Shown: piece by piece, positions 33,461 to 64,000 of the stretch | Layout: each line of letters starts with the position of its first letter | Numbering within the stretch: position 1 is the stretch's first letter | DNA from: Spisula solida | Lineage: Eukaryota; Mollusca; Bivalvia; Venerida; Mactridae | Direction: 5' to 3' | DNA: 64,000 nucleotides | NCBI GenBank assembly: GCA_947247005.1 | Contig: OX365955.1 | Span: 36,125,822 to 36,189,821 of the forward strand | Notes under the pieces: generated by a model | Seen by the model: the letters and a program-made list of their open reading frames with translations, nothing else | Told to the model about the DNA's origin: nothing | The model's database searches: none | Made by a program: the position numbers and the translations under genes

Positions 33461-33462
33461 TA

Positions 33463-34442: not shown

Positions 34443-34635
34443 TCACAATGGCTTCCTCAAGTATCTTAGAGTAATATAACCAAGTATTCTGAAGACAAGA
34501 GTAAATGCTAACAGAAAGATGACATATTGCCAGTATGACCAGGTGACATTATAATACTCTAAAACTTGTTGTGATGGTATCGTACGGGAATGCTGGCATA
34601 TAGTAAATGATGATCTGTTAGATGGTTTCACGCAA
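34443..34635 (-). CDS. ABCG terminal exon with TM6 and stop
   Basis: Acceptor TTTCAG above 34635; TGA at 34443-34445. It encodes [16 protein letters not shown], an extracellular loop with two Cys and candidate N-glycosylation sites NRS and NVT, then TM6 ([20 protein letters not shown]) and a short basic tail ending RYLRKPL. The tandem array begins about 30 bases after the stop. Confidence 0.92.
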
Positions 34636-37600
34636 CTGAAATAAACATATTGCAAGCATATATATATAATTGTATCTATGAAAACATCTAGGTCATTGAA
34701 TTACTCAGAAATGAACAATTATTATAGTAAATCTTTGACACAACAAGAGATGTTTGTAAAACACGTATGCCCCCATGGCTGCCCAATAGTCAGAAATGGT
34801 GAAAGTCATAGTGACCTTGACCTTTGACCTACTGACCTCAAAATCAATAGGGGTCATTTACTTTAGCTGACCAACCTCCATGTAAAGTTTGAAGATCCTA
34901 GGTCAAAGCGTTCTTGGGTTATTGAGCAGAAACCATTTAAAGTCATAAATGGTAAAGGTCACAGTAACCTTGACCTACTGACCTCAAAATCAATAGGGGT
35001 CATCTACTGTTGCTGACCAACCTCCATGTAAAGTTTAAGGATCCTAGGTCAAAGCGTTCTTGAGTTATTGAATGGAAACCATTTAAATAGTCAGAAATAG
35101 TAAAGGTCACAGTGACCTTTGACCTACTGACCTCAAAATCAATAGTAAGTAAGTAACAACTTTATTTATAGTAGATAACATATTTGGTGTTATACCAATT
35201 TTCAATTTGGTCTACATAGGGGTCATCTACTGTTGCTGACCAACCTCCATGTAAAGTTTGAAGATCCTAGGTCAAAGCGTTCTTGTGTTATTGGGCAGAA
35301 ACCATTTTATACGACCGACCGACAGACATGTGCAAAGCAATATACCCCCTCATCAAAGATGGGGGGCATAAAAATGTATGTCTCCCACAAAAGGCTGTAA
35401 CTCCCGCATTAGTAATCCAACCTTAAATTCATGAACAACATGCACAACTAGACTATGCATCAAGTATTCATGTGGAATATGACCAATAGTTAAGGAGAAC
35501 AAGCACTAACAAACTTATTTTGATAATTAAAGGTCCATAACTTTGGCAATAATCATCCAACAAAATACTCTAGAACATCACGCATATGTACCCTTACGTG
35601 ACTATGACTTAGTGACATCAATACCAGTAAAGTTGTCATGATATGTCATGATGTCCCTATCAATTAAGAAGATTGGAGGTATCAATCTAAATTTATTTTA
35701 GAAATACTGACTCACATGAAATTGTCCTTTAAGACCCCCAATCACACCAAACTCTCTTCTTATTCTTAAGTTGCATAAAAAGATGTCCTATGTATCTACT
35801 GTGTTTACTTACTCTACAGGCTCTGCATCATTAAACTCCAGTACCATCAAACAATGGAATGAATAATGTAAGAATGACAAATATTTCATCCAGTCTAACC
35901 ATACTGGAATATTTCGTGTAAATAAACCACCTGAAAATAAAGATAATATGGTCACACACTTTGAATGCTTGCAGACACATGAGTACTGTTTTACTAACAG
36001 CATGGTCAAACTGGTGGGGAAAGTTGCTGTGCATCATTTATGTTATGATAAGTAAGTTTATATCATTTTATGGTACAGTAATAATAGGAGAAGACGTCTT
36101 ACACTAATAATTTCAAAACAAACGGGTTAAAGACACACTGTTAGACTGATGGGAACTGTAAAGCATGCTCTTTGTTGAAAGGTAGGTAATAAGCATCTTA
36201 AAAGTTATTCAAAAAAAATGAAATTGTTTACCTAGTAACATAACTGCCATTTGGAATGTATTAGTGACAGTCATAGCTTGATTAATCTGTGTGCATGCTA
36301 TACCAATAAACAATCCAAAACTCTGCAATAAAATGTTCATTGATAATAGTTGACAACTATGTTTAATATGTACTTTTATGTTTCAGTTCTAACTTTTGTA
36401 CTTGACATGGAGTTATTAAACAAGTTCACTGCCTAATTTGTAATCTAGAAGACAGTCTTCTAGAGCTGTAGTAACAAGACAGTCTTCTAGAGCTGTAGTA
36501 ACAAGACTGTCTTCTAGAGCTGTAGTAACAAGACAGTCTTCTAGAGCTGTAGTAACAAGACTGTCTTCTAGAGCTGTAGTAACAAGACTGTCTTCTAGAG
36601 CTGTAGTAACAAGACAGTCTTCTAGAGCTGTAGTAACAAGACTGCCTCCTCGAGCTGTAGTAACAAGACTGTCTTCTAGAGCTGTAGTAACAAGACTGTC
36701 TTCTAGAGCTGTAGTAACAAGACAGTCTTCTAGAGCTGTAGTAACAAGACTGTCTTCTAGAGCTGTAGTAACAAGACTGCCTCCTAGAGCTGTAGTAACA
36801 AGACTGTCTTCTAGAGCTGTAGTAACAAGACTGCCTCCTAGAGCTGTAGTAACAAGACTGCCTCCTAGAGCTGTAGCAACAAGACTGCCTCCTAGAGCTG
36901 TAGTAACAAGACTGCCTCCTAGAGATGTAGTAACAAGACAGCCTCCTAGAGATGTAGTAACAAGACAGCCTCCTAGAGCTGAAGTAACAAGACAGCCTCC
37001 TAGAGATGTAGTAACAAGACTGCCTCCTAGAGATGTAGTAACAAGACTGCCTCCTAGAGCTGAAGTAACAAGACAGCCTCCTAGAGCTGTAGTAAAAAGA
37101 CTGCCTCCTAGAGATGTAGTAACAAGACAGCCTCCTAGAGCTGAAGTAACAAGACTGTCTTCTAGAGCTGTAGTAACAAGACTGCCTCCTAGAGCTGTAG
37201 CAACAAGACTGCCTCCTAGAACTGTAGTAACAAGACTGCCTCCTAGAGATGTAGTAACAAGACAGCCTCCTAGAGCTGTAGTAACAAGACTGTCATCTAG
37301 AGCTGTAGTAACAAGACTGCCTCCTAGAGCTGTAGTAACAAGACTGTCATCTAGAGCTGTAGTAACAAGACTGTCATCTAGAGCTGTAGTAACAAGACTG
37401 CCTCCTCGAGCTGTAGTAACAAGACTGCCTCCTAGAGCTGTAGTAACAAGACTGCCTCCTAGATTACAAATTTGTCAGTGAAGTAGTCAACAAACCCTGC
37501 TATAATCTATAATAATTTAAATAATGTACTTCAAAACACGTAAAAATAATATAAACACTGTAAAATATTTTTAGAAAAGATGTACATAACTTGCATTTTC

Positions 37601-40600
37601 TTCACAAAAACGACTAATGCCAGTTTTTACCCAGTGCAGAGACATTAGAACCAGAGATTAGCAGGTCGTTAATTTTATTTCGCTTGCGCAATACTAACGC
37701 CCGTATCGGTCCGTTCAATCCGGCAAGAACGGACCCATACAGTCGATAAACTGTTGGCGTTGGTGAAGTTGAAACGTATTAATAATTTTTTGGCAATTTT
37801 GTCTTATGTCTTAATTGCATTTGTGTTGTCCTACATGTTCATGTATGAAACATTAAAGAATCCATTGAAACATAATTATATTAATTGTGCTAACTGCCCA
37901 AACATTAAAGAAGCTGTAATAATTATATTGCTCAATGGTGTTTATTTGTTTACATGTATTGCAATAAATATTTGAAGTTGATATTTATCAATTAGATCTG
38001 TTTTTACTTTTAAGAAGACAAATTAGAGCATTGACGTGACCTTTTTCAAAATATTGTTCACAGTCTTTGAACTGCTTAGGCATTCCCAGTTGAAGTCATT
38101 AACTACCACTCTGGGTAACTACCACAGACATCTAATATATAAGTTCCTGGAAACGCATGGGTTATGTTATATTTTTCAAAGATCATACAACATCTCCAGT
38201 ATTCTTTAGGTTTTTACAGACCCTGTAGTGGTAATATCTTGTAAATTAAATTGTGTGTCTTGCACTGTACAAGAGGGCCCATAGGTCTCTAGGTTGCTCA
38301 CCTGTGCACAATGATCCAGTAGAACCATGTTGTTTTAAAGTTTTTCTTTTCGGTTGCCATGACAACCAGATTTCTGCATGGCTTATAATTCTGTTGGCTA
38401 TATTTAGAAAGGATAGCCCAAGGAACATTGTTACCCATTTAACATCAAATACCAGTACTTTTAGAGAAGATTTTACTAAAGATATATAGGGAAAAAGAGG
38501 GCCCCACTCACTGGTGGGCATGTTTTTTGACGAATCATGACAAAAATGTCAATTTCAACTGACAAAATAAAAGAAAAAAAAAGTGTGTTATACAAGTAAG
38601 TCAGTACCAAAAGCACATGAAAAGGATCATGTAGTAATGTTTAATAATAGGAGCACTCAGGTGTTCCAGGGCCTCATTATGGAGTTGGTCTTTATATTAA
38701 GGTTAAGTTTGTAAAAAGCAAAACCTTAAAATTAATATGGACCTGAAAATACTTATAGTGTAGGCTTTTTCAGCAGGAAAAAATACTCTGCGTGATAAAA
38801 CAGTGAGTATACCTTCCCATTGAAAATAGCATACATAGAGCCAATAGCTGGATTACACTGAAAATATGAGCAGCCAGAGTCCTGTTCATAAGCTCTAAGA
38901 AAATTTTATGTTCATGTGTATCGAATTAGATTTCTCAGAGTTTTACACTGCATTAAATAGTGAATATGTCAGTCTATTCAGTCGGATGAATGACTCGGCG
39001 TGATAAAAAAGGTGAGTATTCCTCACACTGAAAAAACCATACTTAGAGCCCACTATAGAGTATACTCAAAATGTGGGCAGCTAGAGTCCTGTCTTCCAGC
39101 TCTTGGAAAATGTTTAGATAATGGGTATTAGGATAGGTTTCTCAGAGTTTTATGCTGCATAAAATACTGAATATGTCGGTCTATTCTGACAGTCGGACGA
39201 ATGACTCGGCTTGAAAAAAAGTGAGTATTCCTCACACTGAAAAAATCATACTTAAAGCCAATATATTATTCCCAAAATATGGGCATCCAAAGTCCTACCC
39301 TTTAACTTTTAGAAAATGTTCTGTTCATTGGTATCAGGTTAGGTTTCTAAGAGTTTTACGCTGCACAAAATAGTGAATATGTCAACAAATACCCGACCCA
39401 CATACAGTGACCAACACCACTGATTACCTTGGTAGTTAATATGCCGTGTTTTACACTATCCATCAAACATCTTCACTGTACATCATATTGTTTGTGTCAT
39501 ATGTTAAGAAGGATTATTTTACATAATGAGACATGCATTCAACTACGTGTTAACAGTAAATATAAAGTAATCTCAAATTTAATCATTCTCGTTGACTCAC
39601 ATTGACCTGTAGTGACCGTGAATTCCGTCCTGTTCTCGTTAAATCTCGCACACGCACTACTACGCGTGAACAATATAGGGATAGAGCGAACCAGCAAATC
39701 TCTGGTTCTTCTTTCTCTGTCTAGTGTTTCACCCCGAGTGTGAAAAACGACTACTACCGTATGGAACACTGTAGCAGATTGAGACATGAAATTACCTGTC
39801 CAGCTATAGACATCAGCAACACTGTAGCAGATTGAGACATGAAATTACCTGTCCAGCTATAGACACCAGCAACACTGTAGCAGATTTAGACATGAAATTA
39901 CCTGTCCCGCTATAGACACTAGCAACACTGTAGCAGATTGAGACATGAAATTACCTGTCCAGCTATAGAGACCAGCAACACTGTAGCAGATTGAGACATG
40001 AAATTACCTGTCCAGCTATAGACACCAGCAACACTGTAGCAGATTTAGACATGAAATTATCTGTCCAGCTATAGACACCAGCAACACTGTAGCAGATTGA
40101 GACATGAAATTACCTGTCCAGCTATAGAGACCAGCAACACTGTAGCAGATTGAGACATGAAATTACCTGTCCAGCTATAGACACCAGCAACACTGTAGCA
40201 GATTTAGACATGAAATTACCTGTCCCGCTATAGACATCAGCAACACTGTAGCAGATTGAGACATGAAATTACCTGTCCAGCTATAGACACCAGCAACACT
40301 GTAGCAGATTAAGACATGAAATTACCTGTCCAGCTATAGACACCAGCAACACTGTAGCAGATTGAGACATGAAATTACCTGTCCAGCTATAGAGACCAGC
40401 AACACTGTAGCAGATTGAGACATGAAATTACCTGTCCAGCTATAGACACCAGCAACACTGTAGCAGATTGAGACATGAAATTACCTGTCCCTCTATAGAG
40501 ACCAGCAACACTGTAGCAGATTGAGACATGAAATTACCTGTCCAGCTATAGAGACCAGCAACACTGTAGCAGATTGAGACATGAAATTACCTGTCCAGCT

Positions 40601-43600
40601 ATAGACACCAGCAACACTGTAGCAGATTAAGACATGAAATTACCTGTCCAGCTATAGAGACCAGCAACACTGTAGCAGATTGAGACATGAAATTACCTGT
40701 CCAGCTATAGAGACCAGCAACACTGTAGCAGATTGAGACATGAAATTACCTGTCCAGCTATAGACACCAGCAACACTATACAGTCAGATCTCGATACAAC
40801 GACACTGTTAGTTCCCGATCAAACTGTCGTTATAACGAATTTGTCGTTATACTGAATTTCACTAGTGACGAGAAATTTAGTTTGGAGATTGTTTCATAGA
40901 AATCAATTAATGATTAACATATGATTTATTATGTCATAAAATTGACATAATCAGCAAAGTCAGCAGTATGAAATTATCATAATTACCCAAAATAATATTT
41001 AAAATAAAATACGATGTTTTGAGAGAGCTCCAAAATAAATGGCCTCCGAATTTAAAGATGTCCGGATACTACTACAGTAAACTATAAAATCTAACGCTCT
41101 AGAGAATAATTTGGTTATTCATTTTGTTACAATTTTTACACTATCGTCTTTCAGAATTGATGAATTAATAAATCAAGTCAAGAAATCTCGATTAACATCG
41201 TTTATTTCGTGAACCGTACAATTTCTAAAATACGAATCTATGCGATGACTTCGCTTATCTCCCTTCATTACGAATGCACGAGCCGTTGCACACAAACTGT
41301 GATTAGACTGTGAAAGGTACCACTATTATAAAGAGAGCAATTAAGATTGATTTTCACAAGTGTAATTACATAATTAGACTCCTTGCTCAGACTTTGACTT
41401 TATGAAGCCGATAAATAGTTCAGGTGTGAAAAATAGTCCCTTGATAGTGTCAGTATATCGAGTATTAATTACTGTGTAAACAATCGATTCGTTCCCATCT
41501 TTTTGCTGTCGGTGTTGGTAAGTGAATACAGTCAACTCTCTTTATCTCGAACTCGCTTATATCGAATTTTCCGTTATGCCGAAGTTTTTTTCAAGTCCCG
41601 ATTTTTCTCCTTCTTTGTCTATATGAAATCTCGAGACCCATCTCGAAGTTTCGGCTCGAATTCGGCTCGAATTTTTCGTTATGTCGAATTATTTTTTGGT
41701 CCCGATTAACCAATTTGCACTTTAAATCTATTGTTCATCTCGAAGTCGGGTCGAAGTCTGATCGTATTTAACTAGCGTCGAATGTTTTTCACACTTCGCC
41801 AGTCTGAAATCTTCGATTTACCTGTAATTTTCGCGCCTCCCATTGTTGAACAAATATTTGTTTGCAACAATTTGCACAAACATGTCATAAAGCTTCGGGT
41901 TACGTACTAACATCAATAAACATGTCATCTCGAACAATTGTTTGTAAAAATAATAATTAAAATAAAATGCATTTTCTCGAGGAGGAATGCATGTACATAA
42001 ATATCACCACAAGCAATTCTCACGAATATGTCGTTCTTACGACCGTAAAAATATGGCGGCGTAAAATGACAGAAACTGGAAAACTTGCAACTTCAATGCC
42101 GAAAATTCTATCTCCAATTTTCGTTATGTCGAAGTAATTTCCACGGTCCCGTGAAATTCGAGATAACGAGAGTTGACGGTATGTCGTTATAACGGATACT
42201 ATTAATGTTGTATAGAATTCGTCCCCACCAGTTGGTGTCGTTATAACGAAATTGTCGGTATATCGGGTGTCGTTGTAATGAGTCCTGACTGTAGCAGATT
42301 GAGACATGAAATTACCTGTCCTGCTATAGACACCAGCAACACTGTAGCAGATTGAGACATGAAATTCCCTGTCCCGCTATAGACACCAGCAACACAGTGT
42401 AGCAGATTTAGACATGAAATTACCTGTCCAGCTATAGACACCAGCAACACTGTAGCAGATTGAGACATGAAATTACCTGTCTCGCTATAGACACCAGCAA
42501 CACAGTGTAGCAGATTTAGACATGAAATTACCTGTCCCGCTATAGACACCAGCAACACTGTAGCAGATTGAGACATGAAATTACCTGTCCAGCTATAGAG
42601 ACCAGCAACACTGTAGCAGATTGATACATGAAATTACCTGTCCAGCTATAGAGACCAGCAACACTATAGCAGATTTAGACATGAAATTACCTGTCCAGCT
42701 ATAGACACCAGCAACACTGTAGCAGATTAAGACATGAAATTACCTGTCTCGCTATAGACACCAGCAACACTGTAGCAGATTGAGACATGAAATTACCTGT
42801 CCAGCTATAGAGACCAGCAACACTATAGCAGATTTAGACATGAAATTACCTGTCCAGCTATAGACACCAGCAACACTGTAGCAGATTTAGACATGAAATT
42901 ACCTGTCTCGCTATAGACACCAGCAACACTGTAGCAGATTGAGACATGAAATTACCTGTCCCGCTATAGACATCAGCAACACTGTAGCAGATTGAGACAT
43001 GAAATTACCTGTCTCGCTATAGACACCAGCAACACTGTAGCAGATTTAGACATGAAATTACCTGTCCCGCTATAGACACCAGCATCACTGTAGCAGATTG
43101 AGACATGAAATTACCTGTCCCGCTATAGACATCAGCAACACTGTAGCAGATTGAGACATGAAATTACCTGTCTCGCTATAGACACCAGCAACACTGTAGC
43201 AGATTGAGACATGAAATTACCTGTCCCGCTATAGACACCAGCAACACTGTAGCAGATTGAGACATGAAATTACCTGTCTCGCTATAGACACCAGCAACAC
43301 TGTAGCAGATTGAGACATGAAATTACCTGTCTCGCTATAGACACCAGCAACACTGTAGCAGATTGAGACATGAAATTACCTGTCTCGCTATAGACACCAG
43401 CAACACTGTAGCAGATTGAGACATGAAATTACCTGTCCCGCTATAGACACCAGCAACACTGTAGCAGATTGAGACATGAAATTACCTGTCTCGCTATAGA
43501 CACCAGCAACACTGTAGCAGATTGAGACATGAAATTACCTGTCTCGCTATAGACACCAGCAACACTGTAGCAGATTGAGACATGAAATTACCTGTCCCGC

Positions 43601-52600: not shown

Positions 52601-55600
52601 ACAAAATACACCCTGTAGTAGGTTCCTGTATCATAAAACATACACCTGCTAATTATAACATTTGCTAATAAAAATATGCGAGACTGTAGCTGTCTATTGA
52701 ATATTTATTAAGTGGTTGGTAAACCCTCACCAAATGGGTCGGGGTAGATGGCGGGGGTCATAGAATCAAATCAAACCCACCATGTGCGGGTACAGATCAC
52801 TTATAATGTGTACAGGGGCATAACTAGACAAATATTTTGATGTGCTGTTCCAACAATACTAGGAGGGTATTTTTCCACTGTTGATAGCATGGGTGTGTTT
52901 TGGTGTACATTTGGTCACTTCAAATGTAACAAAATTTGTCTTCAAAGTTTATATGACATATGCTTAACAATATTTGGCAAATGATGTGTATGCCTGGCAT
53001 ATATGCATTTTTACCCCCCAAAATTACAGTATCTCAGATAGATAGAAGGCAAACCCTCAACATATGGCAATAGTGACTCCTTACTACATACAAAACAGAA
53101 ATTAATCTAAATTTTAATGCAAGAACACTGTGGAAAGTGTTTGCTAATAATAAATGAATTATATCAAATACAATGTTTGCAAGGAAGTTCATGAATAACA
53201 TCTGGAATACATACATCAAGAAAAATAATATCTGGATCCCTAAGGAGTTCACATGCAATACTGGCCCTCTTCTTTTCTCCCCCTGATAATCCTGGTGAAA
53301 ACATATCCCCCATATCTGAAATATGTGTACACCAAATAGAACAACATATCTGAAATATGTGAACACCAAATAGAACAACATATCTGAAATACAGTAACAC
53401 CAAATCGAACAACATATCTGAAATATGTGTACACCAACTAGAACAACATATCTGAAATATGTGAGCACCAAATAGATCAAGATATCTGAAATTTGTGAAC
53501 ACCAAATAGATCAAGATATCTGAAATTTGTGAACACCAAATAGATCAAGATATCTGAAATATGTGAGCACCAAATAGATCAAGATATCTGAAATTTGTGA
53601 ACACCAAATAGATCAAGATATCTGAAATATGTGAGCACCAAATAGATCAAGATATCTGAAATTTGTGAACACCAAATAGATCAAGATATCTGAAATTTGT
53701 GAACACCAAATAGATCAAGAAATCTGAAATTTGTGAACACCAAATAGATCAAGAAATCTGAAATTTTTGAACACCAAGTAGATCAAGAAATCTGAAATTA
53801 ACTAGAACTGTCGCCATTCGGCAGACTAATATACCCCCCGCGTGGCAAAATCATTGCAGCTAATTCTTTTCTTTATGCACATCTACATGTTGAGGTTGTT
53901 AATCTGTTAAAGTTTGAAGAAAATGCTGCAAAAACTGTAGGAGAAGTTGCGTCCACAAGAACTATTTACTGTATATTGTATAGTGCATAAAAGTACAAAG
54001 GGCCATAATTCTGTCAAAAATTGTTGCAGCGTAAATTCTTTCCTTTATGCGCATCTACATGTTGAGGTTGTTCATCTATTAAAGTTTGAAAGAAATGCTG
54101 CAAAAACTGTAGGAGGACATGCGTCCACAAGAACTGTTCACTATATATTGTATAGTGCATAAAAGTACAAAGGGCCATAATTCTGTCAAAAATTGTCGCA
54201 GCGCAAATTCTTTCCTTTATGCACATTTACATGTTGAGGTTGTTCATCTGTGAAAGTTTGAAGGAAATGCTGCAAAAACTGTAGGAGGAGTTGCGTCCAC
54301 AAGAACTATTCACTATATATTGCATAGTGCATAAAAGTACAAAGGGCCATAATTCTGTCAAAAATTGTCGCAGTGTAAATTCTTTCCTTTATGCACATCT
54401 AATGTAAACACCAAATAGATCAAGATATCTGAAATATGTGAACACCAAATAGATCAAGATATCTGAAATATGTGAACACCCAATAGATCAAGATATCTGA
54501 AATATGTGAACACCAAATAGATCAAGATATCTGAAATATGTGAACACCCAATAGATCAAGATATCTGAAATATGTGAACACCAAATAGATCAATATATCT
54601 GGAATTAAATTTGTGAACACCAAATAGATCAAGATATCTGAAATTTGTGAACACCAAATAGATCAAGAAATCTGAAATTAAATATGTGTACACCCAATAG
54701 ATCAAGATATCTGAAATATGTGAACACCAAATAGATCAAGATATCTGAAATATGTGAACACCAAATAGATCAAGATATCTGAAATATGTGAACACCAAAT
54801 AGATCAAGATATCTGGAATTAAATATGTGTACACCAAATAGATCAAGATATCTGGAATTAAATATGTTTACACCAAAGAGATCAACATATCAGAAATATG
54901 TGCTTACATCAAATAGAACATTAAAATTTTTACTACATACTGGTATGTAGACATTTGTTGAGATCCAAGGCATCAACAACTGATTGTAGACGAGACATTT
55001 TCTCAGACTTCGACATTTCGTCCGGCAACCTGATCATAGCAGTGAACTACAATATAAGATAAAACCAACAACATAATGTAGTCAATGTTTTGCTGGTTTC
55101 GTAATCACATTGGTAAAATAAGCATGGCTGCACAAAATATCCAAATCTACCCATTGGCAAATAGGCACACCATCTGGCAGGCTCACTTATAGGTTAGAGA
55201 ACCACCAGCCTGTGAGTATAACACACCATCTGGCAGGCTCACCTATAGGTTAGAGCACCAGCCTGTGAGTATAATACACCATATGGCAGGCTCACCTATA
55301 GGATAGAGCACCACCAGCCTGTGAGTATAACACACCATATGGCAGGCTCGTCTATAGGTTAGAGCACCAGCCTGTGAGTATAATACACCATATGGCAGGC
55401 TCACCTATAGGTTAGAGCACCAGCCTGTGAGTATAACACACCATATGGCAGGCTCGTCTATAGGTTAGAGCACCAGCCTGTGAGTATAATACACCATATG
55501 GCAGGCTCACCTATAGGTTAGAGCGCCAGCCTGCGAGTATAACACACCATATGGCAGGCTCACCTATAGGTTAGAGCACCAGCCTGTGAGTATAATACAC

Positions 55601-58600
55601 CATATGGCAGGCTCACCTATAGGTTAGAGCACCAGCCTGTGAGTATAACACACCATCTGGCAGGCTCACCTAAAGGTTAGAGCACCACCAGCCTGTGAGT
55701 ATAACACACCATCAGGCAGGCTCACCTATAGGTTAGAGAACCACCAGCCTGTGAGTATAACACATCATCTGGCAGGCTCACCTATAGGTAAGAGCACCAG
55801 CCTGTGAGTATAAAACACCATCTGGCAGGCTCACCTATAGGTTAGAGCACCACCAGCCTGTGAGTAAAACACACCATCTGGCAGGCTCACCTATAGGTTA
55901 GAGAACCACCAGCCTGTGAGTATAACACACCATCTGGCAGGCTCACCTATAGGTTAGAGAACCACCAGCCTGTGAGTATAACACACCATCTGGCAGGCTC
56001 ACCTATAGGTTAGAGCACCAGCCTGTGAGTATAACACACCATCTGGCAGGCTCACCTATAGGTTAGAGCATCACCAGCCTGTGAGTAAATACCATCTGGC
56101 AGGCTCACCTATAAGTTAGAGCGCCAACCTGTGAGTATAACACACCATCTGGCAGGCTCACCTATAAGTTAGAGCGCCAACCTGTGAGTATAACACGCTA
56201 TATGGCAGGCTCACCTATAGGTTAGAGCACCAGCCTGTGAGTATAACACACCATCTGGCAGGCTCGTCTACAGGTTAGAGCACCACCAGCCTGTGAGTAT
56301 AACATACCATATGGCAGGCTCACCTATAGGTTAGAGCACCACCAGCCTGTGAGTATAACATTACATCTGGCAGGCTCACCTATAGGTTAGAGCACCACCA
56401 GCCTGTGAGTATAACACACCATATGGAAGGCTCGTCTATAGGTTAGAGCACCAGCCCGTGAGTATAACACACCATATGGCAGGCTCACCTATGGGTTAGA
56501 GCACCACCAGCCTGTGAGTATAACACACCATCTGGCAGGCTCACCTATGGGTTAGAGCACCACCAGCCTGTGAGTATAATACACCATATGGCAGGCTCAC
56601 CTATGGGTTAGAGCACCACCAGCCTGTGAGTATAACACACCATCTGGCAGGCTCACCTATGGGTTAGAGCACTACCAGCCTGTGAGTATAACACACCATC
56701 TGGCAGGCTCACCTATAGGTTAGAGCACCAGCCTGTGAGTATAACACACCATCTGGCAGGCTCACCTATAGGTTAGAGCACCAGCCTGTGAGTATAACAC
56801 ACCATCTGGCAGGCTCACCTATAGGTTAGAGAACCACCAGCCTGTGAGTATAACACATCATCTGGCAGGCTCACCTATGGTTAGAGAACCACCAGCCTGT
56901 GAGTATAACACATCATCTGGCAGGCTCACCTATGGTTAGAGAACCACCAGCCTGTGAGTATAACACACCATATGGCAGGCTCACCTATAGGTTAGAGCAC
57001 CACCAGCCTGTGAGTATAACACACCATCTGGCAGGCTCACCTATAGGTTAGAGAACCACCAGCCTGTGAGTATAACACATCATCTGGCAGGCTCACCTAT
57101 AGGTTAGAGCACCACCAGCCTGTTAGTATAACACACCATCTGGCAGGCTCACCTATGGGTTAGAGCACCACCAGCCTGTGAGTATAACACACCATCTGGC
57201 AGGCTCACCTATGGGTTAGAGCACCACCAGCCTGTGAGTATAACACACCATATGGCAGGCTCACCTATGGGTTAGAGCACCACCAGCCTGTGAGTATAAC
57301 ACACCATCTGGCAGGCTCACCTATGGGTTAGAGCACCAGCCTGTGAGTATAACACACCATTTGGCAGGCTCACCTATAGGTTCGAGCACCAGCCTGTGAG
57401 TATAACACACCATCTGGCAGGCTCACCTATAGGTTAGAGAACCACCAGCCTGTGAGTATAACACATCATCTGGCAGGCTCACCTATAGGTTAGAGAACCA
57501 CCAGCCCGTGAGTATAACACACCATATGGCAGGCTCGTCTATAGGTTAGAGCACCAGCCCGTGAGTATAACACACCATATGGCAGGCTCACCTATGGGTT
57601 AGAGCACCACCAGCCTGTGAGTATAACACACCATCTGGCAGGCTCACCTATATGTTAGAGCACCAGCCTGTGAGTATAACACACCATCTGGCAGGCTCAC
57701 CTATAGGTTAGAGCACCACCAGCCTGTGAGTATAACACACCATCTGGCAGGCTCACCTATAGGTTAGAGCACCACCAGCCTGTGAGTAAAACACACCATC
57801 TGGCAGGCTCACCTATAGGTTAGAGAACCACCAGCCTGTGAGTATAACACACCATCTGGCAGGCTCACCTATAGGTTAGAGAACCACCAGCCTGTGAGTA
57901 TAACACACCATATGGCAGGCTCACCTATAGGTTAGAGCACCACCAGCCTGTGAGTATAACACACCATCTGGCAGGCTCACCTATAGGTTAGAGCACCAGC
58001 CTGTGAGTATAACACACCATCTGGCAGGCTCACCTATAGGTTAGAGCATCACCAGCCTGTGAGTAAATACCATCTGGCAGGCTCACCTATAAGTTAGAGC
58101 GCCAACCTGTGAGTATAACACACCATCAGGCAGGCTCACCTATAAGTTAGAGCGCCAACCTGTGAGTATAACACGCTATATGGCAGGCTCACCTATAGGT
58201 TAGAGCACCAGCCTGTGAGTATAACACACCATCTGGCAGGCTCGTCTATAGGTTAGAGCACCACCAGCCTGTGAGTATAACATACCATATGGCAGGCTCA
58301 CCTATAGGTTAGAGCACCACCAGCCTGTGAGTATAACATTACATCTGGCAGGCTCACCTATAGGTTAGAGCACCACCAGCCTGTGAGTATAAAACACCAT
58401 CTGGCAGGCTCACCTATAGGTTAGATCCAGCCTGTGAGTATAACACACCATATGCCAGGCTCGTCTATAGGTTAGAGCACCAGCCTGTGAGTATAACACA
58501 CCATATGGCAGGCTCACCTATAGGTTAGAGCACCACCAGCCTGTGAGTATAACACACCATATGGCAGGCTCACCTATGGGTTAGAGCACCAGCCCGTGAG

Positions 58601-61600
58601 TAAAACACACCATATGGCAGGCTCACCTATGGGTTAGAGCACCACCAGCCTGTGAGTATAACACACCATCTGGCAGGCTCATCTATGGGTTAGAGCACCA
58701 CCAGCCTGTGAGTATAACACACCATATGGCAGGCTCACCTATGGGTTAGAGCACCACCAGCCTGTGAGTATAACACACCATCTGGCAGGCTCACCTATGG
58801 GTTAGAGCACCAGCCTGTGAGTATAACACACCATCTGGCAGGCTCACCTATAGGTTAGAGCACCAGCCTGTGAGTATAACACACCATCTGGCAGGCTCAC
58901 CTATAGGTTAGAGAACCACCAGCCTGTGAGTATAACACATCATCTGGCAGGCTCACCTATAGGTTAGAGAACCAGCAGCCTGTGAGTATAACACACCATA
59001 TGGCAGGCTCGTCTATAGGTTAGAGCACCAGCCCGTGAGTATAACACACCATATGGCAGGCTCACCTATGGGTTAGAGCACCACCAGCCTGTGAGTATAA
59101 CACACCATCTGGCAGGCTCACCTATGGGTTAGAGCACCACCAGCCTGTGAGTATAACACACCATATGGCAGGCTCACCTATGGGTTAGAGCATCACCAGC
59201 CTGTGAGTATAACACACCATCTGGCAGGCTCACCTATGGGTTAGAGCGCCAACCTGTGAGTATAACACGCTATATGGCAGGCTCACCTATAGGTTAGAGC
59301 ACCAGCCTGTGAGTATAACACACCATCTGGCAGGCTCGTCTATAGGTTAGAGCACCACCAGCCTGTGAGTATAACATACCATATGGCAGGCTCACCTATA
59401 GGTTAGAGCACCACCAGCCTGTGAGTATAACATTACATCTGGCAGGCTCACCTATAGGTTAGAGCACCACCAGCCTGTGAGTATAACACACCATATGGCA
59501 GGCTCACCTATGGGTTAGAGCATCACCAGCCTGTGAGTATAACACACCATCTGGCAGGCTCACCTATGGGTTAGAGCACTACCAGCCTGTGAGTATAACA
59601 CACCATCTGGCAGGCTCACCTATAGGTTAGAGCACCAGCCTGTGACTATAACACACCATCTGGCAGGCTCACCTATAGGTTAGAGCACCAGCCTGTGAGT
59701 ATAACACACCATCTGGCAGGCTCACCTATAGGTTAGAGAACCACCAGCCTGTGAGTATAACACATCATCTGGCAGGCTCACCTATGGTTAGAGAACCACC
59801 AGCCTGTGAGTATAACACATCATCTGGCAGGCTCACCTATGGTTAGAGAACCACCAGCCTGTGAGTATAACACACCATATGGCAGGCTCACCTATAGGTT
59901 AGAGCACCACCAGCCTGTGAGTATAACACACCATCTGGCAGGCTCACCTATAGGTTAGAGAACCACCAGCCTGTGAGTATAACACATCATCTGGCAGGCT
60001 CACCTATAGGTTAGAGCACCACCAGCCTGTGAGTATAACACACCATCTGGCAGGCTCACCTATGGGTTAGAGCACCACCAGCCTGTGAGTATAACACACC
60101 ATCTGGCAGGCTCACCTATGGGTTAGAGCACCACCAGCCTGTGAGTATAACACACCATATGGCAGGCTCACCTATGGGTTAGAGCACCACCAGCCTGTGA
60201 GTATAACACACCATCTGGCAGGCTCACCTATGGGTTAGAGCACCAGCCTGTGAGTATAACACACCATCTGGCAGGCTCACCTATAGGTTAGAGCACCAGC
60301 CTGTGAGTATAACACACCATCTGGCAGGCTCACCTATAGGTTAGAGAACCACCAGCCTGTGAGTATAACACATCATCTGGCAGGCTCACCTATAGGTTAG
60401 AGAACCACCAGCCCGTGAGTATAACACACCATATGGCAGGCTCGTCTATAGGTTAGAGCACCAGCCCGTGAGTATAACACACCATATGGCAGGCTCACCT
60501 ATGGGTTAGAGCACCACCAGCCTGTGAGTATAACACACCATCTGGCAGGCTCACCTATGGGTTAGAGCACCACCAGCCTGTGAGTATAACACACCATATG
60601 GCAGGCTCACCTATGGGTTAGAGCACCACCAGCCTGTGAGTATAACACACCATCTGGCAGGCTCACCTATGGGTTAGAGCACTACCAGCCTGTGAGTATA
60701 ACACACCATCTGGCAGGCTCACCTATAGGTTAGAGCGCCAACCTGTGAGTATTACACACCATCTGGCAGGCTCACCTATAGGTTAGAGCACCACCAGCCT
60801 GTGAGTATAACACATCATCTGGCAGGCTCACCTATAGGTTAGAGCACCAGCCTGTGAGTATAACACACCATCTGGCAGGCTCACCTATAGGTTAGAGAAC
60901 CACCAGCCTGTGAGTATAACACACCATCTGGCAGGCTCACCTATAGGTTAGAGCACAACCAGCCTGTGAGTATAACACACCATCTGGCAGGCTCACCTAT
61001 AGGTTAGAGCACCACCAGCCTGTGAGTATAACATACCATCTGACAGGCTCACCTATAGGTTAGAGAACCACCAGCCTGTGAGTATAACACACCATCTGGC
61101 AGGCTCACCTATAGGTTAGAGCGCCACCAGCCTGTGAGTAAATACCATCTGGCAGGCTCACCTATAGGTTAGAGAACCACCAGCCTGTGAGTATAACACA
61201 CCATCTGGCAGGCTCACCTATAGGTTAGAGAACCACCAGCCTGTGAGTATAACACACCATCTGGCAGGCTCACCTATAGGTTAGAGCGCCAACCTGTGAG
61301 TATAACACACCATCTGGCAGGCTAACCTATAGGTTAAAGCACCAGCCTGTGAGTATAACACACCATCTGGCAGGCTCACCTATAGGTTAGAGCACCAGCC
61401 TGTGAGTATAATACACCATATGGCAGGCTCACCTATAGGTTAGAGCGCCAACCTGTGAGTATAACACACCATCTGGCAGGCTAACCTATAGGTTAGAGCA
61501 CCACCAGCCTGTGAGTATAACACACCATCTGGCAGGCTCACCTATAGGTTAGAGCACCACCAGCCTGTGAGTATAACACACCATCTGGCAGGCTCACCTA

Positions 61601-64000
61601 TAGGTTAGAGCACCAGCCTGTGAGTATAAACTGTGCAGAATGGTAATGGTATAACTGCCAGTGTAAAAATGTAGTTCCAGAACTTGTTAGCTCATTGTCA
61701 GCATATTCTCTATATCACTGAAATACGAGCCTTTAAGCCACAAAACACCAGTACATAGTGGTGGTAGGGAGCACACTTTAGGATTTGAGAGGTCTCGGGT
61801 CCAATCCAGGTCTGTGCCACTGCTTAATTTCTGAGCAAGAATAACCAACAATGCTCCACTCGACCAAGGTGTGAATTGGTACGTGTGAGGTCAGTATATA
61901 TTCAATATTCCTGGGCACCGTATCTCAATGTTGGCTGCACACAAACCTGGATAGAAATAGTCTACCCAGGGAGACCAAACACATGTTTCATTAGGTAGCC
62001 CAATGGCCAGGGCAAGTTAAATGTCAAAGGGTGGCTGAATTGCTGAAAGCAGCCCTAAACCTGATAGTTTAAACTCAAAATGATTACGGTATACAAACCT
62101 CCATAGTTTGTTTCAGAGTCAAGTTCGCAAAGAAGCATTCTTGTTGTAAAACAAAGCACATTTTTCTTTTCAGGGTTTTATTCAATGTTGTGCCCCCGAC
62201 ATTAATATTCCCATCATAAGCTGTACGTCCATTTAATGTGTTCATCAGAGTTGTCTTTCCTGCTCCTGAATAATCATAGTTAGATCTACTGTAAAATGGT
62301 TCATTTTTTTAAGAGTCCAATTATTCTTGCTAGCAATAATTGATTCATTAATCTAAATGACAATGAGTGTTGGATTCTTTTTATCTCATTAATTTAGTTA
62401 CCGAGTTAAAACAACATCAGAAATAATGAATTTAAGCCTACGACATTACGTGGTGAACTCATGCATTTGTTATCACACACATTGGAGAACATTGTTGCGT
62501 GATTTGTTCTCGAATGGAACATGACGTGTTTATGTGATAAGGCAGCAGAGACCATTGAAGGAATGGGTTAACTGGTTCACTATATCATTTACCAGGTATC
62601 AAAGTTATTTTGAGACTTTATGTGTATATACACATGTAGAATGGGATGTAACAGCATGAAGCTGAATGTACCTACCACTTGATCCCATTATGGCATGAAG
62701 CTGAATGTACCTACCACTTGATCCCATTATGGCATGAAGCTGAATGTACCTACCACTTGATCCCATTATAGCATGAAGCTGAAAGTACCTACCACTTGAT
62801 CCCATTATAGCATGAAGCTGAAAGTACCTACCACTTGATCCCATTATAGCATGAAGCTGAATGTACCTACCACTTGATCCCATTATAGCATGAAGCTGAA
62901 AGTACCTACCACTTGATCCCATTATAGCATGAAGCTGAAAGTACCTACCACTTGATCCCATTATAGCATGAAGCTGAAAGTACCTACCACTTGATCCCAT
63001 TATAGCATGAAGCTGAAAGTACCTACCACTTGATCCCATTATAGCATGAAGCTGAAAGTACCTACCACTTGATCCCATTATAGCATGAAGCTGAAAGTAC
63101 CTACCACTTGATCCCATTATAGCATGAAGCTGAAAGTACCTACCACTTGATCCCATTATAGCATGAAGCTGAAAGTACCTACCACTTGATCCCATTATAG
63201 CATGAAGCTGAATGTACCTACCACTTGATCCCATTATAGCATGCAGCTGAATGTACCTACCACTTGATCCCATTATGGCATGAAGCTGAATGTACCTACC
63301 ACTTGATCCCATTATAGCCAGCATTTCTCCCGGGGACACGCTTCCCGAGACATTGTTCAATATTTGGTTGCCAGCAATACTGACAGACAGACCAGACCAT
63401 CTCAACTCAGTTCCTGATAAACCATCTCTGTATGAATAGAGGAATAATGTGAATCATTTATTGTGATAGACAGACCGTAATAAAACCATGATATGCACTT
63501 ACATAATTATAGCTTCTGATGAAAGAAAACACTACATGATTTCCCCCCAAGTATTGTTTTATACCAACTTTAGAAATCACTACAACTTTACCCGTGTAAT
63601 TTCTCCACAACCAATTCATCCGAGCAAAAAACGAGTTCCAGCCAATCATAATTTTCAATCATTTTTAAGAACATTTGTCACTAGCAATTGAAATATTTTT
63701 TATTTCTCTGTATTGCGAGAAATTTTGGAATGTTTCTTCTGTGAGTTAATGTTTTTGTGTGAATAAATTCCTACGCGCTGTGAAATGACCATTGGTTCTT
63801 GAGGGTTGATAAAAATGTCGCTGTTACAGTACCTGGTTAAGCAGACGATATTTACACTGTTTGGTTTCATAATGTTCGCAGTTTAGCAACAAACTCCTGT
63901 TATAATGTATTTATTTTTTACTATTTACAATACTTTGCATTGATAAATAGAATTGATCGACGTTTCATCCATTAAATTTACCTCAGATCTTCGGCTAAAT
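34443..64000 (-). CDS. ABCG-family half-transporter gene, 14 exons in window, 5' end outside
   Basis: This gene encodes an ATP-binding cassette transporter of subfamily G, an integral membrane protein that works as a dimer and exports lipids or small organic compounds; the substrate cannot be read from sequence. Minus-strand exons: 63982-64000 (partial), 63300-63427, 62099-62265, 54941-55046, 53215-53315, 51002-51163, 48561-48654, 47182-47245, 45853-45920, 45277-45579, 44016-44230, 36232-36322, 35813-35930, 34443-34635. All internal borders are GT/AG and all phases agree, giving 608 residues counted from the window edge. Motifs: Walker A GSSGAGKT (46-53), Q-loop Q89/Q90, signature LSGGE (149-153), Walker B IIFLD (169-173) with catalytic E174, D-loop GLDS, H-loop H207. 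Six hydrophobic segments lie near 354-369, 383-398, 434-454, 459-483, 488-508 and 580-600. The linker [15 protein letters not shown] resembles the plant ABCG14/ABCG21-type clade more than ABCG1, ABCG2 or white. No internal stop or missing motif is seen, so the gene looks functional. Its introns are unusually rich in minisatellites. Confidence 0.92.
34760..35372. mobile_element. bivalve-type ATGCCCCC...GGGGGCAT element with three internal repeats
   Basis: Starts ACAAGAGATGTTTGTAAAAC plus ACGTATGCCCCCATGG and ends GATGGGGGGCATAAAAATG. Contains three copies of about 150 bp (GTGACCTTTGACCTACTGAC, AATCAATAGGGGTCAT). It lies in the intron between exons 34443-34635 and 35813-35930. Confidence 0.7.
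35145..35217 (-). mobile_element. short retroelement 3'-end insertion inside the preceding element
   Basis: Sister repeats read AATCAATAGGGGTCATCTAC without a break; here about 73 bases (TAAGTAAGTAACAACTTTAT ... TTGGTCTACATAG) are inserted after AATCAATAG. The TAAGTAAGTAA end looks like a short-repeat tail, fitting a 5'-truncated non-LTR insertion. Confidence 0.5.
35385..35600 (-). repeat. old dispersed repeat (also at 7745-7960 and 10380-10600)
   Basis: Inverted copy sharing CATGAATA, CTACCAGCCTAGTTGTGC-like and GAGAACAAGCAC/GTGCTTGTTCTC segments with the two plus-strand copies at the left of the window. Diverged, non-coding. Confidence 0.5.
35813..35930 (-). CDS. ABCG exon, TM5 end and extracellular loop
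   Basis: Acceptor TTTCAG above 35930, donor GTAAGT at 35807-35812. It encodes [20 protein letters not shown] and [18 protein letters not shown]. The motif with P-W and YLSF-YSF is the conserved ABCG segment after TM5. Phase 1 to 2. Confidence 0.93.
36232..36322 (-). CDS. ABCG exon, TM4-TM5
   Basis: Acceptor TTGCAG above 36322, donor GTAAAC at 36226-36231. It encodes [19 protein letters not shown] and then [11 protein letters not shown], matching the TM4-TM5 region of ABCG proteins. It is 91 bases long, phase 0 to 1. The preceding intron of about 7.7 kb holds two minisatellites and nested transposons. Confidence 0.92.
36449..37465. repeat. 27-bp minisatellite, about 37 copies, with inverted flanks
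   Basis: The unit is AGACTGTCTTCTAGAGCTG plus TAGTAACA, drifting to CCTCCTAGAG in the right half. The flanks are inverted copies of each other: TTCACTGCCTAATTTGTAAT... at 36427-36450 and ...AAATTTGTCAGTGAA ending near 37483, 22 of 24 matching. The array may therefore be the core of a foldback mobile element. It lies in the intron before exon 36232-36322. Confidence 0.9.
38262..38520. mobile_element. diverged bivalve GGGCCC...CTCACCTG repeat fragment
   Basis: ACAAGAGGGCCCATAGGTCT, GCTCACCTGTGCAC at one end and GGAAAAAGAGGGCCCCACTC at the other. Resembles the ends of the AGCTCACC elements at 12744 and 18490. No coding content. Confidence 0.45.
38770..39395. repeat. three diverged tandem repeats of about 209 bp
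   Basis: GTGAGTAT lies at 38803, 39012 and 39221. Each unit contains CTCAGAGTTTTA, GTGAATATGTC, GAATGACTCGGC and GAGCCAATA-like segments. Lies in an ABCG intron. Confidence 0.75.
39757..40780. repeat. 53-bp minisatellite, distal block (about 19 copies)
   Basis: Same unit as 42293-44046. The two blocks were one array before a pogo-like element inserted at a TA within a unit (CAACACT-TA). Units alternate between variants GAGACC/GACACC and CCAGC/CCCGC/CTCGC. Confidence 0.95.
40781..42291. mobile_element. pogo/Tigger-like non-autonomous DNA transposon, 1.5 kb
   Basis: The terminal inverted repeats start CAGTCAG...TACAACGACAC (21 of 25 matching) and the element is flanked by TA on both sides, the target-site duplication of Tc1/mariner/pogo elements. 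Subterminal TCGTTATAACGAA motifs are typical of pogo-like ends. No transposase reading frame is visible. It interrupts the 53-bp array. Confidence 0.85.
41529..42179. mobile_element. second pogo-like element nested in the first
   Basis: Inverted ends CAGTCAACTCTCTTTATCTC and CCGTCAACTCTCGTTATCTC (read inward; 21 of 23 matching including GAA) with TA on both sides at 41527-41528 and 42180-42181. It has no coding capacity. A degraded relative lies at 29873-30320. Confidence 0.82.
42293..44046. repeat. 53-bp minisatellite carrying a splice donor, proximal block (about 33 copies)
   Basis: The minus-strand unit is GTGTTGCTGGTGTCTATAGC, TGGACAG|GTAATTTCATG and TCTCAATCTGCTACA. It repeats the last roughly 31 bases of exon 44016-44230 plus its donor. 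Each unit also has CTGCTACAG|TG, an acceptor-like site, so a unit could look like a 26-base micro-exon. Confidence 0.96.
44016..44230 (-). CDS. ABCG exon, TM3 and start of TM4
   Basis: Acceptor GTTTAG above 44230, donor GTAATT at 44010-44015. It encodes [22 protein letters not shown]3 ([20 protein letters not shown]) and the start of TM4 ([17 protein letters not shown]). The last roughly 31 exon bases plus the donor are repeated about 52 times downstream as a 53-bp array. Any later donor would run into an in-frame stop in the first repeat. Confidence 0.93.
44379..44829. mobile_element. short inverted-repeat element (CAGGGTTCCCAC ends)
   Basis: The ends CAGGGTTCCCAC and GTGGGAACCCTG are perfect inverted repeats. 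The interior is dominated by TTCCCTGACTTTTCCCTGAC repeats. I recall elements with this end from many animal genomes. It lies in an ABCG intron. Confidence 0.75.
45277..45579 (-). CDS. ABCG exon, start of membrane domain (TM1-TM2)
   Basis: Acceptor TTACAG above 45579, donor GTAAGT at 45271-45276. It encodes the linker end, the amphipathic stretch [22 protein letters not shown]1 ([16 protein letters not shown]) and TM2 ([16 protein letters not shown]). It is 303 bases long, the largest exon of the gene, and phase 1 at both ends. Confidence 0.93.
45853..45920 (-). CDS. ABCG exon, linker
   Basis: Acceptor TTACAG above 45920, donor GTAATT at 45847-45852. It runs 68 bases, phase 2 to phase 1, and encodes [19 protein letters not shown], a Ser/Glu-rich hydrophilic linker. 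Placed by splice signals and exact phase fit between its neighbours. Confidence 0.75.
46021..46600. mobile_element. bivalve-type ACAAGAGCACC repeat element
   Basis: Begins AACAAGAGCACCGCCTACGA with GTGCTGGACGCTCA and carries two diverged repeats with AACTCATAAATATAGGTCACAG. Related to 27527-28500. Non-coding; lies in an ABCG intron. Confidence 0.6.
47182..47245 (-). CDS. ABCG exon, linker
   Basis: Acceptor GAACAG at 47246-47251, donor GTAAGT at 47176-47181. A short 64-base exon, phase 1 to phase 2, encoding [20 protein letters not shown], part of the poorly conserved linker between ATP-binding and membrane domains. Placed by phase continuity and splice signals; sequence conservation is weak here. 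Confidence 0.75.
48233..48515 (-). mobile_element. tRNA-derived SINE in ABCG intron
   Basis: Minus-strand head with an A-box-like CGTCCAGTGGTTAGTGCACT and a B-box-like GGGCTTGATTCC. It is followed by a body that ends AACTGGTTAAGTAAATCACC ... GTTGAGAAACGACATTCAAT and an A-rich tail, as in mollusc SINEs. Confidence 0.72.
48561..48654 (-). CDS. ABCG exon, end of nucleotide-binding domain
   Basis: Acceptor TTACAG above 48654, donor GTAAGT at 48555-48560. It encodes [19 protein letters not shown] and then [10 protein letters not shown], the conserved ABCG segment (usually ...YFG....Y..P.NPADF.) that closes the ATP-binding domain. It is 94 bases long and ends in phase 1. Confidence 0.92.
48900..49076 (+). 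mobile_element. 3' end of a non-LTR retrotransposon
   Basis: The sequence ATGAGCCGGAGGCCTAAATT, ACTGGAATAAAC, then (ATT)n resembles the 3' tail of LINE-type elements that end in a trinucleotide repeat. No coding part remains. Confidence 0.5.
49200..49725. repeat. 19-bp minisatellite, about 25 copies
   Basis: The unit is CTAGTCACCAAACACTTAA with small variants (TTAATTAG, CCATACAC). It lies in the same intron as the 30-bp array but does not touch an exon. Function unknown. Confidence 0.9.
49868..51005. repeat. 30-bp minisatellite, about 38 copies, carrying the splice donor of the catalytic-Glu exon
   Basis: The minus-strand unit is TTAGATGGTCAG|GTAAACAAC plus AGTCTTATC. It copies the last 11 bases of exon 51002-51163 and its donor. 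The frame [10 protein letters not shown] stays open for about eight units, to 50741. Some units have GGTCAT instead of GGTCAG before GTAAAC, a weaker donor. Confidence 0.96.
51002..51163 (-). CDS. ABCG exon with catalytic Glu, D-loop and H-loop
   Basis: Acceptor GATACAG just above 51163, donor GTAAAC at 50996-51001. The 162 bases (54 codons, phase 0 to 0) start with [15 protein letters not shown], contain ASIHQPS with the switch His, and end LNLLLDGQ. Both exon edges are seeds of tandem arrays, the 34-bp acceptor array at 51164-52648 and the 30-bp donor array at 49868-51001, so the exon is enclosed by copies of its own splice sites. Confidence 0.93.
51151..52648. repeat. 34-bp minisatellite, about 44 copies, carrying the acceptor and catalytic-Glu exon start
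   Basis: The minus-strand unit is GTGTATGTTGTATGATACAG followed by GAACCTACTACAGG, in which GATACAG|GAACCTACTACAGG equals the intron end and first 14 bases of exon 51002-51163. Only the most proximal copy leads into the real exon. The unit is not a multiple of three and reading through meets TGA within two units. Confidence 0.97.
53215..53315 (-). CDS. ABCG exon with LSGGE signature and Walker B
   Basis: Acceptor TTTCAG at 53316-53321, donor GTATGT at 53209-53214. It encodes [19 protein letters not shown] through DPDIIFLD: the C-loop signature and Walker B, ending in phase 0 just before the catalytic Glu. About 30 copies of the acceptor with its first exon bases (CAG|ATAT) lie in the upstream intron as a 34-bp array. 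Confidence 0.93.
53322..54930. repeat. 34-bp minisatellite, about 30 copies, carrying a splice acceptor
   Basis: On the minus strand the unit reads CTATTTGGTGTTCACATATT, TCAG, then ATAT plus a variable tail. TTTCAG|ATAT is the acceptor and first bases of exon 53215-53315. The array is split at 53807-54404 by an unrelated mobile element. Subfamilies alternate AGAACAACAT and AGATCAAGAT. Confidence 0.93.
53807..54404 (-). mobile_element. bivalve-type repeat element inserted in the 34-bp array
   Basis: It begins AACTAGAACTGTCGCCATTC with ATACCCCCCGCGTGGCAAAA, and contains three repeats of about 180 bp with CTGCAAAAACTGTAGGAG and AGTACAAAGGGCCATAATTC. It is an inverted copy of the element at 1756-2137, whose end reads GGCGACAGTTCTAGT. 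The other end is truncated. No coding capacity is seen. Confidence 0.8.
54941..55046 (-). CDS. ABCG exon, helical subdomain
   Basis: Acceptor TTGTAG at 55047-55052, donor GTATGT just below 54941. It encodes [17 protein letters not shown] followed by [17 protein letters not shown], the helical stretch between Q-loop and signature that is typical of ABCG proteins. It is 106 bases long and ends in phase 1. The preceding intron carries the 6.4-kb tandem array and the following one the 34-bp acceptor-bearing array. Confidence 0.92.
55168..61630. repeat. 6.4-kb tandem array, about 115 copies of 53-56 bp
   Basis: The unit is CACCATCTGGCAGGCTCACC followed by TATAGGTTAGAGCACCACC and AGCCTGTGAGTATAACA. 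Length varies by gain or loss of one CAC triplet. Blocks recur as larger units: the marker GAGCATCACC lies at 56066 and 58044 (1978 bp apart), and the marker CTATGGTTAG at 56875 and 59782 (2907 bp apart), so the array grew partly by kilobase-scale duplication. It sits within one ABCG intron, about 120 bp from exon 54941-55046. Confidence 0.96.
61745..61990 (+). mobile_element. tRNA-derived SINE-like element
   Basis: Contains GGTGGTAGGGAGCACACTTT and a B-box-like GGTCTCGGGTCCAATCCAGG, then CACTGCTTAATTTCTGAGCA and CCAAGGTGTGAATTGGTACG, which I recall from mollusc SINE bodies. It sits just beyond the 6.4-kb array. Confidence 0.6.
62099..62265 (-). CDS. ABCG exon completing Walker A, with Q-loop
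   Basis: Acceptor ATTCAG at 62266-62271, donor GTTTGT at 62093-62098. The exon starts with the two bases that complete the split Gly codon and continues [13 protein letters not shown], then the Q-loop stretch [16 protein letters not shown] and the start of the helical subdomain (KQTME). It runs 167 bases, ends in phase 0, and covers residues 49-104 of the visible protein. The K of GKTT is the ATP phosphate-binding Lys. Confidence 0.93.
62650..63318. repeat. 39-bp minisatellite, 17 copies, carrying the exon end and splice donor
   Basis: Each unit, on the minus strand, holds 19 exon bases (GCTATAATGGGATCAAGTG, coding AIMGSSG) followed by GTAGGTAC and ...CAGCTTCAT. The most exon-proximal copy is the true end of exon 63300-63427. 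The period is 13 codons and the coding frame stays open through all 17 copies. Copies are almost identical, differing mainly at T/A in GAATGTAC versus GAAAGTAC. Confidence 0.97.
63300..63427 (-). CDS. ABCG exon with first half of Walker A
   Basis: Acceptor ATACAG at 63428-63433. The exon encodes residues 7-48, through [13 protein letters not shown], and ends after the first base of the next Gly codon, so the intron cuts the P-loop. The first donor is GTAGGTAC at 63292-63299. Sixteen further near-identical donors follow in the intron because the exon end itself is tandemly repeated; see the array at 62650-63318. Which donor is used cannot be read from DNA. The first was chosen because it gives the normal ABCG length. 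Confidence 0.9.
63428..63981 (-). other. ABCG intron 1, no features seen
   Basis: Intron between the first two visible exons, GTAAAT to ATACAG. AT-rich; nothing recognised inside. Confidence 0.6.
63982..64000 (-). CDS. ABCG exon (first visible, partial)
   Basis: The last 19 bases of an exon that continues beyond the window. It encodes LAEDLR in the phase that joins exon 63300-63427 (split codon AG|A). The donor is GTAAAT at 63976-63981. This is the N-terminal part ahead of the nucleotide-binding domain. The call rests on phase continuity only, because the exon is cut by the window edge. Confidence 0.6.

Follow-up and report, generated by a model that had tools for sequence, protein, structure and literature searches.

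A single gene of the clam Spisula solida carries minisatellite arrays whose tandem unit spans the boundary between an exon and its intron, clearly at four splice edges and weakly at a fifth. These arrays are very probably minisatellites born by short tandem duplications across a splice junction, of the kind called "mirages" in amphioxus. Such births would be recurrent in the clam genome, with the exon-proximal copy of each splice site being the functional one.

The window, i.e., the whole stretch of 64,000 nucleotides that was analyzed (C13:36125822-36189821), is part of a genome of 932 Mb in 36 contigs. The exon model of the host gene was made by hand from the sequence and then checked by joining the exons. 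The gene lies on the minus strand and has 13 exons, and every intron is of the GT-AG type. When built with the exon-proximal splice sites, the coding sequence is intact and forms a single open frame of 602 aa. Pfam matched both PF00005 and PF01061 in this protein, with ABC_tran followed by ABC2_membrane, and the relatives are ABCG proteins, including ABCG structures. The best-scoring named proteins among the relatives listed are from bivalves, namely Dreissena polymorpha (66%) and Sinanodonta woodiana (61%), while one relative without a name was listed at 69%. As judged from its sequence, the host gene encodes an intact ABCG-type half-transporter, with the first (N-terminal) exon missing from the model. 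The modeled exons are as follows.

63300..63427, minus strand: exon E1', ending in the coding sequence for Walker A (AIMGSS/G), with its donor copied into the intron (16 further copies)
62099..62265, minus strand: exon E2
54941..55046, minus strand: exon E3
53215..53315, minus strand: exon E4, with the ABC signature LSGGE
51002..51163, minus strand: exon E5, flanked on its two sides by different arrays
48561..48654, minus strand: exon E6
47182..47245, minus strand: exon E7
45853..45920, minus strand: exon E8
45277..45579, minus strand: exon E9, start of the ABC2 membrane domain
44016..44230, minus strand: exon E10, with its donor copied into the intron
36232..36322, minus strand: exon E11
35813..35930, minus strand: exon E12
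34443..34635, minus strand: exon E13, containing the stop codon

The left part of the window gave no Pfam match at E 0.1 in the 10 open frames scanned out of 106 of at least 52 aa. A repeat with a period of ~145 bp and closely similar units is found at 12845-13945, at 18583-19538 and in L009, and another 145-bp repeat lies at 25102-25816.

Copies of splice edges were counted with a 20-mer straddling the edge (10 exon and 10 intron bases), allowing at most two mismatches, for all 25 edges and in the intron adjacent to each. Further copies were found for the donor at 63300 (16), the acceptor at 51163 (43), the donor at 51002 (35) and the donor at 44016 (51), with 0 copies in the adjacent intron for the remaining 21 of the 25 edges. 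The arrays to which these edges belong, together with those of intron 3, are listed here.

62653..63318, minus strand: 39-bp array of 17 copies seeded on the E1' donor, with ~19 exon bases per unit; the unit length is a multiple of 3 and the array stays open
54402..54902, minus strand: second 34-bp block in intron 3, stopping 38 bp short of the E3 donor, which it does not contain
53312..53799, minus strand: 34-bp array of 14 copies, the last of which is the E4 acceptor; the weakest case
51150..52646, minus strand: 34-bp array of 44 copies seeded on the E5 acceptor, with the exon sequence for EPTTG inside the unit
49850..51012, minus strand: 30-bp array of 39 copies seeded on the E5 donor
42288..44046, minus strand: proximal block (33 copies) of the array seeded at the E10 donor, whose 53-bp unit includes ~31 bases of the exon
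39765..40777, minus strand: distal block of the same 53-bp array, 19.1 copies that an insertion has separated from the proximal block

The tandem unit clearly contains the edge at the E1' donor, the E5 acceptor, the E5 donor and the E10 donor. The E4 acceptor (53315) was counted as a weak fifth edge, because it is the last copy of its array, yet has 5–6 exon bases in common with the unit and gave 0 copies of the 20-mer. The exon bases per unit, partly assessed by eye, number ~19–22 for E1', 5–6 for E4, 14–15 for the E5 acceptor, 10–14 for the E5 donor and 31–35 for E10. For each of the edge arrays the best match of the unit is its own exon; 0 of 200 shuffles were as good for four arrays, and the E4 array gave a p-value of 0.02 in the same comparison. 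The units are regular, with no indel steps in four arrays and two such steps in the proximal block of the E10 array. A repeat with a period of 172 separates the two 34-bp blocks of intron 3. A sequence-only reading of this DNA had described splice edges copied into adjacent intron arrays, and the 20-mer counts bear this out for E1', both sides of E5 and E10. For E4 the agreement is weaker and comes from the position of its acceptor as the last copy of the array.

The copied exon ends encode Walker A (AIMGSS/GAGKTT) and Walker B (LD/EPTTG), as well as LLLDGQ and SIAGQ. In the 43 aligned of the 120 relatives listed, three of which end prematurely at the first junction, the copied residues at the four clear edges are largely conserved and no residues are inserted at the junctions. 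At these four edges the exon is therefore the source and the array the copy. The E4 edge gives no direction of copying, since its residues vary between relatives. The same conservation, along with the match of each unit to its own exon, upholds the earlier view that existing splice edges were expanded into arrays.

With the functional sites excluded, GT or AG is intact in 156 of 160 decoy sites, a count that leaves out the second 34-bp block and takes 51 of the ~52 copies of the 53-bp array. All 43 decoy AGs are intact at the E5 acceptor, as are 36 of 38 decoy GTs at the E5 donor, and the decoys are identical to the functional 9-mer in 16 of 16 cases for E1' and 48 of 50 for E10. Selection on the decoy sites was looked for and none was seen: their splice dinucleotides have survived to much the same extent as the other positions of the unit (P = 0.14 against other dinucleotides). 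The decoys are thus neither purged nor specially kept, which fits nearly neutral arrays whose copies may be passed over by the spliceosome.

The arrays probably arose by duplication of a stretch of a few tens of bp comprising an exon end and an intron start, or an intron end and an exon start, with short direct repeats as the probable borders. Slippage and unequal exchange would then expand and homogenize the duplication to between 14 and ~52 copies. The exon-proximal copy would remain the functional splice site, and the other copies would turn into intron, so that the protein would be unchanged and the array nearly neutral; the arrays would be tolerated because the exon-proximal site is in use. 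We infer both the duplication mechanism and the near-neutrality, and the conservation of the protein suggests that the spliceosome uses the exon-proximal site. By eye, bases from the exon side are repeated at the far ends of the arrays (~10 bases for E4, TACAGTGTT for E10, CAGG for the E5 acceptor, GCT for E1' and at most AAT for the E5 donor), as expected for the remnant of a tandem duplication between short direct repeats. The unit variants are structured: a block of several units recurs within the E5 acceptor array, and the 39-bp array is uniform in its center and variant at its ends. Two arrays are split by insertions.

40779..42293, no strand assigned: insertion of ~1.5 kb that interrupts the 53-bp array, bounded by TA on either side and with inverted ends of 27 nt (85%)
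33461-34384: insertion bordered by TA, with perfect inverted ends of 30 nt, splitting an array downstream of the stop codon

Because the former insertion splits the 53-bp array, the array must predate it. Four further arrays lie away from the exon edges.

55166..61629, minus strand: 118 copies of a 56-bp unit in intron 2, carrying on the gene strand AG and AGGTGAG that resemble splice signals
49223..49723, minus strand: 19-bp array in intron 5
36449..37463, minus strand: 27-bp array in intron 10
31974..33462, minus strand: 27-bp array of 55 copies downstream of the stop codon, without exon bases

The gene strand of intron 2 holds 104 AGGTGAG and 108 CTCACAGG, making up a field of pseudo-exon-like signals. 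The first copy of the array downstream of the stop codon stands at ~34.4 kb, split off by the insertion 33461-34384. This array had been read as a sixth one starting just after the stop codon; it begins ~30 nt downstream without bases of the last exon, and we reject it as an exon-seeded array. Its unit resembles the end of E9 on the opposite strand, with 0 of 200 shuffles as good, and the 27-bp array of intron 10 gave a p-value of 0.025 against E11. Neither is convincing as an old edge among 26 tests. A tRNA or Rfam source of the repeats was also dismissed, with no tRNA and no Rfam match at gathering scores in the window.

Arrays spanning an edge account for five of the eight minisatellites counted in the gene, where the two split arrays were each counted once and the array after the stop codon, being outside the gene bounds, was left out. 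Random placement of the arrays within the gene put five of them at edges in 0 of 20,000 trials (mean 0.33). Random seeding of units gave P = 6.6e-7 for five of eight and P = 1.3e-5 for the four arrays with at least 10 exon bases. Adding five rows from TRF (13 arrays, not every TRF row) changed these values to 1.1e-4 and 9.6e-4, and this variant would not stand alone because 9.6e-4 over an assumed 30,000 genes corresponds to 29 expected genes. All of these P values serve as a guide only, since the gene was picked as striking.

Similar structures are found elsewhere in the genome. Donor pairs of CAGGTAAGT spaced 24–54 bp apart number 4577 (1888 + 2689), compared with 105 (65 + 40) for the reversed motif; the arrays of the window are excluded from this count, as none of them holds CAGGTAAGT. 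The 100 donor-pair places listed span the first 32.2 Mb of C1 and make up four loci, with 90 of the 100 in one array without a clear exon (L029). The 100 control places listed of the 105 fall into 29 loci genome-wide, 12 of which have two or more pairs, so that the four loci compare with ~1 expected from the control in the first 32.2 Mb of C1. With 90 of the 100 listed places in a single array, the excess at the level of loci is smaller than the 44-fold obtained for pairs. With AGGT 7 nt downstream, CAGGTAAGT occurs 31 times compared with 20 for the control, six of the occurrences being in two arrays.

Six tandem-donor arrays were inspected, namely the four C1 loci of the donor pairs and two clusters from the pattern with AGGT, whose period of 85–87 is outside the 24–54-bp count; one of these two clusters has two copies only. 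In five of the six, the array starts where an apparent open exon, preceded by an AG acceptor, ends; the array at C1:32.16 Mb showed no clear exon on inspection. The five are listed below.

C1:13.968 Mb: exon of a MICU1 EF-hand (PDB E 5.9e-11), the only firm identity; 6 exon bases in the next copy
C1:23.844 Mb: membrane segment, with TMC-2 as the sole PDB match (E 1.8) and DUF3561 below the Pfam cut-off (E 0.024); 22 exon bases
C1:26.003 Mb: membrane segment, with TctB below the Pfam cut-off (E 0.0087) and no PDB match; 24 exon bases
C5:12.856 Mb: VWA-like (E 0.18, not firm), no PDB match; ~81 of 87 bases are exon (by eye)
C17:21.966 Mb: apparent exon end; 57 exon bases in the next copy

A case of the acceptor type is seen at L014:4807-7709, where an array of 50 copies of 58 bp continues into an open reading frame that follows an AG acceptor; this frame had no Pfam or PDB match. 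Edge arrays thus recur at other exon ends, including that of MICU1, as far as exons can be recognized from sequence. The sequence-only reading had proposed a genome-wide check for enrichment of arrays at exon borders. The part of it that was run agrees with the reading in the pair counts and in the five arrays at open exon ends, and does not refute it. Sixteen sample stretches of 10 kb (L011-L026, 160 kb) contained 21 minisatellites with a period of 15–120 and at least three copies, of which the L014 array was the one followed up; the genome is rich in minisatellites, as sampled in these 160 kb.

The passages available on amphioxus mirages describe minisatellite-like repeats that span exon-intron boundaries in Adh, the globins BflGb6 and BflGb9, TnC and PGBD5 (PMC3087553, PMC3902484). 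They are found at donors or acceptors with the AG/GT signals repeated, reportedly without disturbing normal splicing, and with 3–6 units in BflGb6 and 2–7 in PGBD5 (PMC3087553, PMC3902484). Judged by these passages, the clam arrays are of the same kind, with a unit that spans the exon-intron boundary and repeated splice signals, and they were therefore wrongly taken for an undescribed phenomenon (PMC3087553, PMC3902484). The amphioxus cases belong to a cephalochordate and have 3–6 or 2–7 units in the passages available, whereas the clam is a bivalve with five such edges in one gene and up to ~52 copies. The clam also differs from what those passages describe in having both edges of one exon (E5) affected and in the recurrence at other exon ends. 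Such arrays were not reported for bivalves or molluscs among the matches listed in the open-licence literature. As far as the literature matches show, the bivalve host, the number of edges per gene, the recurrence and the copy number (compared with BflGb6 and PGBD5) are new.

Introners are one mobile family present at many introns, with a repeated sequence tied to splice sites. In contrast to such a family, the clam gene has a different unit at every edge, and the exon that a unit matches best is its own. In human segmental duplications, tandem repeats at exon-intron boundaries are described as changing gene structure (PMC2812944). As presented in that source, the human repeats are tied to new or alternative introns, whereas the clam arrays enlarge existing introns and would leave the protein unchanged. 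Human introns from tandem arrays are also said to have been described by Zhuo in 2007. Large minisatellite arrays are known from intron 1 of earthworm metallothionein (PMC12783039). They resemble the clam arrays as large intronic minisatellites of an invertebrate, and the spanning of splice edges is not mentioned in the passages available from that source.

Long tandem arrays are hard to assemble and one assembly was examined, but an assembly or sequencing artefact is barely credible, because the internal unit variants stand in structured order; each array also has its own unit, insertions with TA ends interrupt two of the arrays, and similar structures occur on other contigs. The AGGT tandem-duplication model of intron gain, reportedly put forward by Rogers in 1989, has tandem duplication across splice-like sites in common with the clam arrays. 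Introns made in this manner from AGGT-containing exon sequence might be suggested by units that carry splice signals, including a 53-bp donor unit that also holds CTACAG as a possible acceptor. We consider this origin very improbable. The model derives both intron ends from the same exon stretch, but the opposite edge of every array-bearing intron has 0 copies, the other side of these introns consists of non-array sequence, the relatives have no added residues at the junctions, and the clam gene shows no new intron. As only one edge per intron was copied, the arrays are expansions of existing introns, and the link to intron origin drawn in the sequence-only reading finds no support in this gene. 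A function of the arrays is also highly unlikely, for example as in-frame 39-bp and 30-bp decoy donors that would give inserts of 13 and 10 residues in the ATP-binding domain. All 16 E1' decoys would, if used, leave the reading frame intact and restore the end of the exon, adding 13 residues per copy without a stop, and the first eight E5 donor decoys would do likewise with 10 residues per copy. Against this, the splice dinucleotides are no better kept than other positions, and stops are hit by 16 of 16 printed decoys for E10, 16 of 16 printed for the E5 acceptor and 11 of 13 for E4. A screen of the 120 relatives listed for exact tandem peptide runs (at least six identities, spacing 7–30) gave three matches in two proteins, unrelated in sequence to the arrays.

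Splice junctions might further be preferred birth places of minisatellites through an active bias, for example from transcription-linked DNA damage or from microhomology of splice motifs such as CAG/AGGT. This idea is compatible with duplication across splice junctions and goes beyond it, and we give it an even chance of being correct. It would account for five of eight arrays at edges compared with a seed expectation of ~2.7% each, and for the excess of tandem donor pairs over reversed pairs; the 31 compared with 20 for CAGGTAAGT with AGGT hints at little excess of single sites over the control motif. By eye, a CAG-containing stretch is common to the edge and the array end in three of five cases. 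Large arrays dominate the pair counts, however, the four loci in 32.2 Mb compare with ~1 expected, and the gene was chosen for being striking. The reading of the arrays as mirages has its own weak points: E4 has 5–6 exon bases in common with its array and edge residues that vary in relatives, three arrays of the gene lie away from the edges, and for three of the five exons outside the window, searches gave no firm match. Mirage-like birth at splice junctions nevertheless remains our preferred explanation.

If splicing of this gene is normal, the cell picks one of 14–52 near-identical sites and always the one nearest to the exon, at donors and acceptors alike. Ideas on splice-site choice could then be tested without engineered constructs. 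If the pattern holds genome-wide, nature would have supplied an experiment on how splice sites are chosen, and the arrays would represent a mutational class beyond amphioxus. The case is about evenly balanced for splice junctions being genome-wide hot spots of minisatellite birth in this bivalve lineage, with hundreds or more introns starting or ending in arrays of near-perfect decoy sites that splicing ignores. Were junctions indeed preferred seeds throughout the genome, they would point to a local source of instability in the DNA that is linked with transcription or splicing, and to a way for introns to grow rapidly in animals.
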